DNA of 64,000 bases, taken from positions 824,522-888,521 of the forward strand of contig NZ_JABEKX010000001.1 in NCBI RefSeq assembly GCF_013407595.1, in the 5' to 3' direction. The notes beneath the pieces were generated by a model. The model saw only the letters and a program-made list of their open reading frames with translations, was not told the DNA's origin and did not search any database. Below are positions 38,300-60,224 of this stretch, in pieces. This DNA comes from Lacticaseibacillus absianus (GTDB lineage: Bacteria; Bacillota; Bacilli; Lactobacillales; Lactobacillaceae). Each line of letters starts with the position of its first letter. Within the stretch, counting starts at the first letter, position 1. The translations under genes were made by a program, and so were the position numbers.

Positions 38300-38533
38300 T
38301 AAAATGGGGCCCTTTTGATTGACGTCGGCCAAACAAAAAGGTCCCATTACGGATCGATGCTTGGATAGCGCCCCGTCTTTCGACGACAGTCCATCCGTTC
38401 TTAGCGGATGGCCCAACGGCACGCGCGCCACTGCGTGTGTCGTTTCGGCGATGATCCCTTTGACCGTACCGCGGTGCAGGGTGGCCTGCTTGGCACGGGG
38501 ACTGATGAGCATCGCAACCTCTATCAATAAGGA
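38300..38533 (-). ncRNA. Lysine riboswitch (L-box) with terminator
   Basis: On the minus strand the leader shows the L-box signature: GATAGAGGTTGCGATGCTCATCAGT near the 5' end, AAAGGGATCATCGCCGAAAC in the middle, and GGACTGTCGTCGAAAGACGGGGCGCTATC closing the aptamer (about 38533 to 38354). Right behind it a terminator stem forms between AATGGGACCTTTT and AAAAGGGCCCCATT (38349 to 38302), followed by TTTAG. Lysine binding should favour termination in front of lysA. Confidence 0.9.
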
Positions 38534-58154: not shown

Positions 58155-59246
58155 ATGCGTTTACATCCCAACATCACGATCCGGCGCTTCGCCCGCGCGG
58201 ATCTCACCCAGTTCGCCGAGTGGGTGCGGCCCCAGATCACTGGCGCCAGCCTGAACCTAGCGCTGATCACGGACACGCACGACCGGACCCAGTTGTCGCG
58301 GACCTTTTATGGCCCCAACGGCTTCTGGCACGTGCAGGAGCAGCACTGGCTGGCTGGCGAGCTGCCGATCGACTGGCGCGTGCACCTCGGGGACCTGGTC
58401 GATGGATCGGAGCCGAGCTTCCTGACGCTGTGGCGGTTGCGCAACATCGTCAGCGACTATGAGGCCGACCCGCTGCCCTACGTGATCGCCAAGGGCAACC
58501 ACGACGACAACGACAAGTATGCGGAGCGCAACCGGCGTTTTGCCGGCAGCTTCCATCCGTGGGTGTTCAACGAGCACGTCTTTCGTAAGATGAAGGCGCA
58601 AGTCGGCGGCCCGGTGGTCTCACGCCACGGACTGTCCGTGTTCGACTGGGCCAACATCCGCGTGATCACGCTCAACACCTCGGACGTCCCGGTGCGCTGG
58701 GTCGGCGGGCGCAAGAACTATGATATGAAAAAGACGCTGGCGGTCACGGCGGCGCAGGTGCAGGAGCTGATCGATGCCTTGCAGAGCGCTGGCTCGCGCG
58801 ACGTACTGATCATGAGCCACGCGCCGGTGATGACGCGCAGCGGTAAGCCTGGCTTGCGCTTCAATGGGCGTCAAGTCCATGAAGTGCTCCGGGCGTTCAA
58901 CGAGAAGCTGAGCGGGCGCGTCGAGTTCGGGGCGCATCCGGACTTTGGCGGGCAGGCACGGTTTGACTTTAGCCAGACCCACGGGCGGATCATCGCCAGC
59001 CTCTCCGGCCACTGGCATACGGAAGAGGACTTCGCGGTCAATGGGATCCACTACAGTCTGATGAACGTCAGTGCTTTGATGGGCCGCAATCACGGGTTGA
59101 CCACGCGCTACAACCGCAAGTGGAACCGGTTGATCAACACGCCGACCGAGTATGCCGGCTATGTTGTCTCGGTCGACACTAAGGCGCGTACGTTGGGGGT
59201 CTACGGGTACGGTGCAGCCAGCGCGAAGCGATCGTTCAGGTACTAG
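58155..59246 (+). CDS. Metallophosphoesterase (calcineurin-like)
   Basis: A 363-residue predicted phosphoesterase. Metal-binding motifs are complete: D-x-H as ITDTHD (Asp40, His42), GDLVDG (about 89-94), GNHDDND (about 114-120), SHAPV (about 220) and GHWH (about 284-287). The rest (FDWANIRVITLNTSDVP) is typical of the fold. No signal peptide, so cytosolic. CGGAGGG is eight bases before ATG. Substrate unknown. It ends in a terminator right before the ncRNA promoter. Confidence 0.88.
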   Translation: MRLHPNITIRRFARADLTQFAEWVRPQITGASLNLALITDTHDRTQLSRTFYGPNGFWHVQEQHWLAGELPIDWRVHLGDLVDGSEPSFLTLWRLRNIVSDYEADPLPYVIAKGNHDDNDKYAERNRRFAGSFHPWVFNEHVFRKMKAQVGGPVVSRHGLSVFDWANIRVITLNTSDVPVRWVGGRKNYDMKKTLAVTAAQVQELIDALQSAGSRDVLIMSHAPVMTRSGKPGLRFNGRQVHEVLRAFNEKLSGRVEFGAHPDFGGQARFDFSQTHGRIIASLSGHWHTEEDFAVNGIHYSLMNVSALMGRNHGLTTRYNRKWNRLINTPTEYAGYVVSVDTKARTLGVYGYGAASAKRSFRY

Positions 59247-59251
59247 ACCAA

Positions 59252-59277
59252 TGCGGCAGCGATGCCGCCTTTTTTTA
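59252..59277 (+). terminator. Terminator of the metallophosphoesterase gene
   Basis: GCGGCA/TGCCGC, four-base loop, then seven T. Confidence 0.93.
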
Positions 59278-59297
59278 GCAAAAATAACGGTAAGCGC

Positions 59298-59326
59298 TTG
59301 CATTTTGCCGGAGCGGATGCTATACT
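59298..59326 (+). promoter_or_regulatory. Promoter of the large non-coding RNA
   Basis: TTGCAT (59298-59303), 17-base spacer, TATACT (59321-59326). The first transcribed base would be near 59333, exactly where the closing helix of the RNA begins. Confidence 0.8.
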
Positions 59327-59333
59327 TTAGTCA

Positions 59334-59850
59334 GAGTTAAGGAAGCGTTCCTCGGTGAACCACAGCACACGAACCAGCTCGAACTAGGTCGTCTCGCTCA
59401 ACACAATGTTCCACCCGAGAGCCTGGGTACAGCAGAAAACTGTGCCACCAAGTGAACCACAGTGAAATGTCGCAACAAGCAACTAATTGGAGGTGCGAGT
59501 CTGACAAAGAGACTCTCCGAACCAAGCGTGACCACTGCGCGTTAACGGTGCACATCGGGCGTTAAGATAACGCCAAACAATGCTAAGTTATTAGGCCGCA
59601 CCAAGCAATACCGCAGTCTAAGCGTACAAGTAAATATTGTCAGTTAGAGGTGTCGCAGTATCGATTTTTCCACACAAGCAACAGATTCTCTCGACTCTAA
59701 GTACACGAGTAGCACGAACGAACGAAGCGAGTTTTGCGAAACAAGTGTAATCGGTCGGAGTTCCAACCAGAACCAGCTGAACGAAGAGAATCCGGGGAAC
59801 ACCTTAACTTAGGACGTCGGCGCGCGAAGTAAGCATGCCGACGTCTGTTT
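59334..59850 (+). ncRNA. Large structured non-coding RNA, ROOL-like candidate
   Basis: About 510 nt without a credible coding frame, between its own strong promoter and a terminator (GACGTCGGC 59813-59821 / GCCGACGTC 59837-59845). The ends pair: GAGTTAAGG (59334-59342) with CCTTAACTT (59802-59810), then GTTCCTCGG (59347-59355) with CCGGGGAAC (59792-59800), 18 bp with a small internal loop. Inside are hairpins GGCGTTA/TAACGCC (59558-59574), GAGTCT/AGACTC (59497-59515), GGTACAG/CTGTGCC (59425-59445), CTAA/TTAG (59583-59594) and a long-range pairing CTCCGAACC (59515-59523) with GGTCGGAG (59753-59760). It also repeats GTGAACCACAG at 59355 and 59452. Size, autonomy and complexity recall the ROOL/GOLLD ornate RNAs known in Lactobacillales; class membership is inference. 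Confidence 0.8.
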
Positions 59851-59880: not shown

Positions 59881-59934
59881 GGTGGCGAGCGGTGTGTACG
59901 GGGCCGTGTCATGTGGCCCAAACCGTTCGCCACC
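59881..59934. repeat. Long inverted repeat between the ncRNA and tyrS
   Basis: GGTGGCGAGCGGT (59881-59893) pairs with ACCGTTCGCCACC (59922-59934), one G-T wobble, with an inner GGGGCC/GGCCC stem. No T-run. It may be an extra 3' barrier or a separate element. Confidence 0.5.
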
Positions 59935-60009: not shown

Positions 60010-60224
60010 ACTATAAGCCAAGAGAAGTGTCAGTAGGCAGGCGTCTGTGTGTCAGAGAACCGGTGGAAGGTGCGAACCGGCCAGGGCGTCGACTGAATTA
60101 CCACTCCAGTGCATTGGCCCGGGTGATGCCGTTAGCCATCGTGAAGAGATGACTGTGTCATAATCTGGGTGGTACCGCGGAGAGATTCGCCCCTGATCAA
60201 CAATGTTGATCGGGGGCGTTTTTT
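60010..60224 (+). ncRNA. T-box riboswitch with tyrosine specifier
   Basis: Conserved T-box TGGGTGGTACCGCG at 60166-60179, then the terminator CGCCCCTGATCAAC/GTTGATCGGGGGCG (60188-60218) and six T. Stem I shows AGAGAACCGGTGGAAGGTGCG at its tip; on the 3' side CTGAAT is followed by TAC at 60099-60101, the tyrosine specifier. Uncharged tRNA-Tyr should allow read-through into tyrS. Confidence 0.92.

Follow-up and report, generated by a model that had tools for sequence, protein, structure and literature searches.

What kind of gene occupies the AT-rich interval ahead of tyrS in the window, a stretch of 64,000 nucleotides from Lacticaseibacillus absianus, and does it belong to the large ornate RNAs already known from lactobacilli? 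The original prediction placed an autonomous, highly structured RNA here, either a member of the ROOL/GOLLD group or a new class of similar design. Positions 59333-59850 of the window hold up as an autonomous, non-coding, structured RNA gene. The RNA is absent from Rfam 15, real and conserved, and its build is like that of large ornate RNAs, whereas its context and control are unlike those of ROOL and GOLLD. What is new is that the promoters of this long structured RNA carry an operator resembling the CcpA box (cre). The locus is laid out as follows.

58155-59246: metallophosphatase gene upstream (Metallophos PF00149, Pfam)
59253-59276, + strand: intrinsic terminator of the upstream gene (GCGGCA-GCGA-TGCCGC, then a T run), separating the metallophosphatase gene from the RNA
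59288-59303, + strand: cre-like (CcpA) operator CGGTAAGCGCTTGCAT, overlapping the -35 box, with 14/16 consensus positions
59298-59326, + strand: promoter TTGCAT-N17-TATACT with extended -10 TGCTATACT, read from the sequence and its homologues
59333-59850, + strand: long structured RNA gene, both ends predicted
59813-59850, + strand: intrinsic terminator of the RNA, a hairpin at 59813-59845 followed by a T-rich tail

The promoter comprises a -35 box TTGCAT (59298-59303), a 17-nt spacer and a -10 box TATACT (59321-59326), with the extended -10 starting at 59318. Reading of the sequence confirmed both it and the terminator at the positions originally claimed, and homologues also retain the terminator, albeit none was called by script in L115. 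The RNA is indeed AT-richer than its surroundings (GC 0.49 vs 0.58-0.64 in windows free of the RNA) and its region has an AT skew of +0.24, with A well above T. The 11-base direct repeat that had been reported, GTGAACCACAG, is exact at 59355 and 59452 but is not conserved as such among homologues. Elsewhere in the window, a T-box leader of tyrS at 60011-60197 (+) scores 68.5 bits against an Rfam cut-off of 93 and could therefore escape standard annotation, and a lysine riboswitch lies at 38358-38531 (-, 90.4 bits). A G+C-rich inverted repeat, GGTGGCGAGCGGT...ACCGTTCGCCACC, is located at 59881-59934 between the RNA terminator and the T-box; palindromic intergenic elements that adjoin the RNA in L003 and L024 are, by eye, possibly related to it. 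The terminator hairpin GGCTTCGAATCGTGATTAGTGCAAGATCCGATTTGAAGCC is identical in five genomes (L005-L009), in which the preceding RNA diverges.

Homologues were sought at several depths. Of 60 genomes searched as DNA, among them the window's own, 44 gave a match at E<=1, many by chance, and 13 genomes besides the window's own matched at E <0.001, all of the same genus. Eighteen full-length members yielded a 176-position core model (R1), which matched 24 of 30 genus genomes (own included) in a single copy each; among the 24, G016 is weak (E 0.003) yet has motif B and the terminator, and G026, added by pattern and reading by eye, raises the genus genomes with the RNA to 25 of 30. No copy was detected in G003, G011, G018, G019 and G029, and four of these five are also without a detectable metallophosphatase neighbour, so the locus may have been lost. 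R1 found 23 matching genomes in a set of 301 from the family. Eight of these lie beyond the genus, and one of the eight (L068 in G265, R1 E 0.0076) was read as a false positive. The motif B pattern occurred in 33/397 family genomes and its reverse in 3/397; five of the 33 matches were judged false, L072 and L074 being Shine-Dalgarno sequences before a gene (by eye), L086 and L087 also failing by eye, and L073 being rejected from its identical match.

A strict pattern demanding both motifs, applied to 84,980 species genomes, returned 30 loci, all in Lactobacillaceae: 16 in Lacticaseibacillus, 6 in Lapidilactobacillus, 4 in Agrilactobacillus, 3 in Latilactobacillus and 1 in Lactobacillus selangorensis, where one of the 16 and one of the 4 are MAGs labelled Lactobacillus sp. 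that were assigned to their genus by isolate name. R1 contributed a sixth group from another genus (L067), and homologues are present in five other Lactobacillaceae genera besides Lacticaseibacillus. The order-level R1 search matched 5/295, all of the window's own genus, but it passed over G065 and G102, both known from the pattern, and absence elsewhere is therefore not proven. The strict pattern gave 0 matches in viral contigs, and blastn with the window RNA found nothing in plasmids or phages.

The elements of the fold are these.

59334-59355, + strand: 5' arms of the closing helices, P0a at 59334-59342 and P0b at 59347-59355 (arm-swap test, window row included)
59426-59446, + strand: hairpin GGTACAG/CTGTGCC with a covarying pair
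59488-59661, + strand: conserved core with helices P1-P7 (alignment, covariation)
59489-59495, + strand: motif A, GGAGGTG, a complement of the 3' end of 16S rRNA that shares its first bases with P1
59534-59538/59613-59617 and 59547-59551/59598-59602, + strand: core helices P4 and P5
59558-59563/59569-59574, + strand: P6, outside the counted structure
59626-59652, + strand: motif B, ACAAGTAAATA-N10-GAGGTG (family consensus ACAAKTGAATA...GAGGTG)
59792-59810, + strand: 3' arms of the closing helices, P0b at 59792-59800 and P0a at 59802-59810 (sequence; arm-swap test)

The two helices said to close the molecule are present. P0a joins GAGTTAAGG (59334-59342) to CCTTAACTT (59802-59810) and P0b joins GTTCCTCGG (59347-59355) to CCGGGGAAC (59792-59800), and the arms vary between genera with complementarity kept, examples being GUAAAGAGG/CCUCUUUAC in Lapidilactobacillus and GAUAGCUUGG/CCAAGCUAUC in Latilactobacillus. 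In an arm-swap test on 37 members from six groups, which set the first 30 nt against the region before the terminator, own arms gave group averages of -24.9 to -28.4 kcal/mol, compared with averages of -12.1 to -14.1 kcal/mol when 5' arms were combined with 3' arms from other genera and -11.2 to -15.2 kcal/mol for shuffled arms, although individual best cross or shuffled values can equal own-arm values. When the 5' end was sought blind, from duplex formation alone over 620 nt upstream, a rival stretch did at least as well as the true arm in 10 of 38 members. The predicted fold of the window RNA exceeded 100/100 shuffles in stability (z -2.57), which is modest by itself.

Within the 175-nt core, 97.2% of cells (18 sequences) form standard pairs, against 34-36% with partners slid; this control favours any structure drawn from the same sequences, so it is the compensatory changes that bear weight. 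Cells changed on both sides numbered 49 vs 16.3 in shuffles (18 sequences) and pairs changed on both sides 10 vs 6.2, while further pair types (25 vs 22.2) were reached by 45/500 shuffles. Both-side changes affect 5/5 pairs of P4; one P5 pair is G-C in nine sequences and A-U in nine, and another is C-G in nine, U-A in six and unpaired in three. In the hairpin GGUACAG/CUGUGCC, pair 162/181 of alignment A5 is A-U in 7/11 and G-C in 4/11. A common fold, as predicted from these alignments, is backed by covariation. Meanwhile, the long-range helix proposed between 59515-59523 and 59753-59760 did not survive comparison: among 18 aligned sequences its 3' side falls in an insertion of the window species and L002 only, and in L002, the nearest relative, the complementarity is already lost. 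Two other candidate pairings were rejected, namely P2 loop (AUAAC) with P7 loop (GUUAU), whose complement is absent by eye in the window species, L003 and L005, and GGUGU of motif B with ACACC near the 3' end, an RNAalifold pairing seen in 30/37 vs 24.4 expected in shuffles and unconvincing. Members have predicted RNA lengths between 400 and about 906 nt, with variable outer domains. In L016 the 5' half of the RNA carries a tandem array of 15 GAACCAA units, and words related to GAACCA(A) also appear in the window and among Agrilactobacillus members.

The promoter region carries a further conserved element. The cre consensus is WTGNAANCGNWNNCAW, and each of 37 promoters has a box with 13-16 matches to it. 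A score of at least 14/16 was found in 30/37 promoters vs 2.8% of random windows taken at these loci and 5.0% after promoter shuffling, and a score of 16 in 10/37 vs 0.03% of random windows; a score of 13, which 20% of random windows reach, is weak alone. This count is biased, as the promoters had been picked partly by their operator, and the test was therefore repeated with the 5' end placed by 3'-arm pairing only. With the start chosen blind in this way, 25/38 scored at least 14 vs 5.0% of random 70-nt windows and 10/38 scored 16 vs 0.2%; the 13/38 below 14 were mostly members where the placement missed the promoter, and the blind 5'-end search regained the previously seen operator box in only 27/38. 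The operator sits 14 nt ahead of the extended -10 in most Lacticaseibacillus, 4 nt ahead in other genera, and abuts it (about -1 nt) in the L. casei group. Its position is shifted and its overlap with the polymerase site is kept in all three registers; the box of L102 is degenerate. A putative cre operator overlaps the promoter, as in CcpA-regulated RNA genes, and repression of the RNA gene by CcpA on preferred sugars is strongly suggested, with CcpA binding read from the motif. Other LacI-family regulators also use boxes similar to cre.

Judged from sequence, the family keeps its paired 5' and 3' ends and a covarying core, lets its outer domains vary in length and has no family-wide peptide. 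Our preferred reading, held with moderate confidence, is that of a structured RNA that responds to carbon supply and acts in trans, and that belongs to the Lacticaseibacillus-Latilactobacillus-Lapidilactobacillus-Agrilactobacillus branch of the Lactobacillaceae. CcpA bound to the operator at the promoter would repress the RNA gene on preferred sugars; upon exhaustion of these sugars the RNA would accumulate and could act in trans as a folded molecule, by itself or together with protein. The conserved core, with motifs A and B, might serve as the contact site. Action in trans is weakly suggested by the autonomy of the RNA and by its varying neighbours.

A related possibility, one we regard as rather unlikely, is a base-pairing regulator in the manner of RNAIII, with a long scaffold whose loops would anneal to mRNAs and so switch metabolic genes post-exponentially. 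RNAIII-type RNAs are about 500 nt long, have paired ends and are under growth-phase or metabolic control. The new RNA resembles them in size, autonomy, paired ends and, presumably, control, and a sugar-dependent promoter with a putative cre would fit a metabolic regulator. However, no quorum operon or encoded peptide was seen and there is no Rfam match; furthermore, seeds of regulatory RNAs that target Shine-Dalgarno sites are C/U-rich, unlike the purine-rich, Shine-Dalgarno-like conserved motifs found here. Bacillus subtilis SR1, a CcpA-controlled sRNA, also has a cre operator on its gene, which here is cre-like, but SR1-type RNAs are short whereas the new RNA is highly structured and 400-900 nt long.

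The purine-rich motifs themselves raise a different idea, that the RNA contacts ribosomes: GGAGGYG and GAGGUG would pair with the anti-Shine-Dalgarno of 16S rRNA and hold or restrain 30S subunits when cells are sugar-starved. Their complementarity to the 16S 3' end hints at such contact, which we nevertheless consider doubtful. GGAGG is retained at the aligned position in 28/30 and AGGTG in 27/30 model-aligned members, as assessed with a model that did not demand the motifs, and L066 and L053, counted as being without one motif, have it at a shifted place. Counts from the pattern searches and promoter-set selection, which did demand the motifs, are uninformative on their constancy. In 28/38 RNAs motifs A and B, taken with their surroundings, give the top two anti-Shine-Dalgarno duplexes among all 12-nt windows, and by eye no start codon follows either at a conserved position. 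Against this, another site outdoes one of them in 10/38 RNAs, GAGGUG is lost in L051 and L052, the first bases of motif A are paired in P1, and the predicted unpaired probability is 0.36 for motif A and 0.32 for motif B vs a molecule mean of 0.42; the motifs may serve the fold instead. The full version, a catabolite-controlled ribosome-binding RNA in which relief of CcpA repression would let two Shine-Dalgarno mimics reach the 16S 3' end so that ribosomes are stored or restrained, is somewhat more doubtful still; if true, it would be an RNA counterpart of hibernation factors in sugar-starved lactobacilli.

Similarly improbable is a self-assembling particle with a structural role, as for GOLLD, OLE and ROOL, the last of which forms an RNA-only nanocage, a reading that the design would suit (400-900 nt, a terminal closing helix, branched and A-rich), although neither homology nor a mobile-element context was found. 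Across all Rfam families there was no match above chance to the RNA, either in the window or at 37 homologue loci (17 + 12 + 8), and the ROOL and GOLLD covariance models had no match in the window at E<=10 or in the 37 loci at E<=1. What Rfam returned near the RNA was the sub-threshold T-box of the tyrS leader and low scores far under cut-off, such as SymR and mir-250 (minus strand, window) and mir-8186 on the L100 terminator region. Lacto-usp (RF01710) had no match in L007, where a usp gene comes next; the same gene in L099 is Usp by Pfam. ROOL and GOLLD are described as having a phage/prophage and tRNA-island context, with GOLLD >800 nt in many members and beside phage/prophage tRNA islands, in the portion of PMC12286853 covered here. 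The new RNA shares with ROOL, and with the long abundant RNA of L. salivarius (as given in the part of PMC5643018 covered), a size of about 500-650 nt, a structured and non-coding nature and an occurrence in lactobacilli, but differs in its cre-like operator, its own core sequence and the lack of any match in the phage, plasmid and viral-contig collections. With GOLLD, named for Lactobacillales among others, it shares the large ornate build, but there is no Rfam match, and the same portion of PMC12286853 gives GOLLD an often greater length and a phage/prophage tRNA-island setting. A ROOL-type phage, prophage or mobile context was not found in the searches of viral contigs, plasmids and phages, and those neighbours that Pfam names are cellular genes. 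Membership of ROOL or GOLLD is thus not borne out, while a new class of similar design (autonomous, 400-900 nt, with a terminal closing helix, branched, non-coding, in lactobacilli) is, so that the original reading as a whole is partly supported.

That the RNA is a leader or 3'-UTR product of a neighbouring gene is mostly refuted and very improbable. In many Lacticaseibacillus it follows the metallophosphatase gene, and asnB follows it in L. chiayiensis, L. saniviri and L. selangorensis, as a leader reading would have it, but it has its own promoter, terminators lie on both sides and neighbours differ among genera. Downstream genes by Pfam are tyrS in the window, asparagine synthase in L106, L107 and L124, Usp in L099, a methyltransferase in L105 and QueH in L103; upstream are the metallophosphatase in the window, a 2-hydroxyacid dehydrogenase in L100 and HMG-CoA synthase in L117 and L121. 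The upstream gene is 506 nt off in L121 and the closest upstream ORF 822 nt off in L103, while G016 and G026 keep the RNA with the metallophosphatase undetected (E 1e-20). The description 'upstream of tyrS' is correct for the window, but since the downstream gene varies between species the adjacency is incidental. The RNA is not a leader of the adjacent genes, and its predicted promoter and terminator make it an autonomous transcription unit. As a side observation, asnB lies downstream in the three species named (Pfam) and in L053 (by eye), and is perhaps the ancestral neighbour. A small encoded peptide is hardly credible, given that the 25-68-codon ORFs of single members, some common to close relatives only (L101/L124/L014; L109/L122/L126) and few with an RBS-like word, differ in position and frame across the family, that start codons after motif A are in different frames or absent, and that by eye no ORF is common to the whole family, in keeping with the predicted lack of a credible coding frame.

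The RNA may have been sighted before. In L. casei BL23, 307 putative small RNAs were reported, and Table 1 lists sLCB2321- as minus-strand, 3' UTR-derived and Northern-positive (PMC8220740, in the portion covered). Interpolation between the RNase P (1642-) and SRP RNA (2400-) numbers of that portion, using gene positions in three genus genomes and assuming the same gene order in BL23, puts the RNA at about 2311, 2307 and 2326 on the minus strand; the tmRNA anchor (1161-), extrapolated likewise, missed by 58-74, so the interpolation is good to tens of units. sLCB2321- may therefore be the same RNA, a suggestive match in strand and in a number within 2307-2326, by position and not by sequence, and not proof. 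With this possible exception, no description of the RNA was recognised in the portions of the literature covered; a word search of PMC11109978 and PMC8632094 found no lactobacillus terms.

A chromosomal, metabolically controlled class would join the few large structured bacterial RNAs, in contrast to ROOL and GOLLD, phage-linked RNAs with no known role. Members of the L. casei group and of Latilactobacillus carry the RNA and should be genetically tractable, and the cre-like operator supplies a defined condition, with which the question of what large ornate RNAs do becomes testable.
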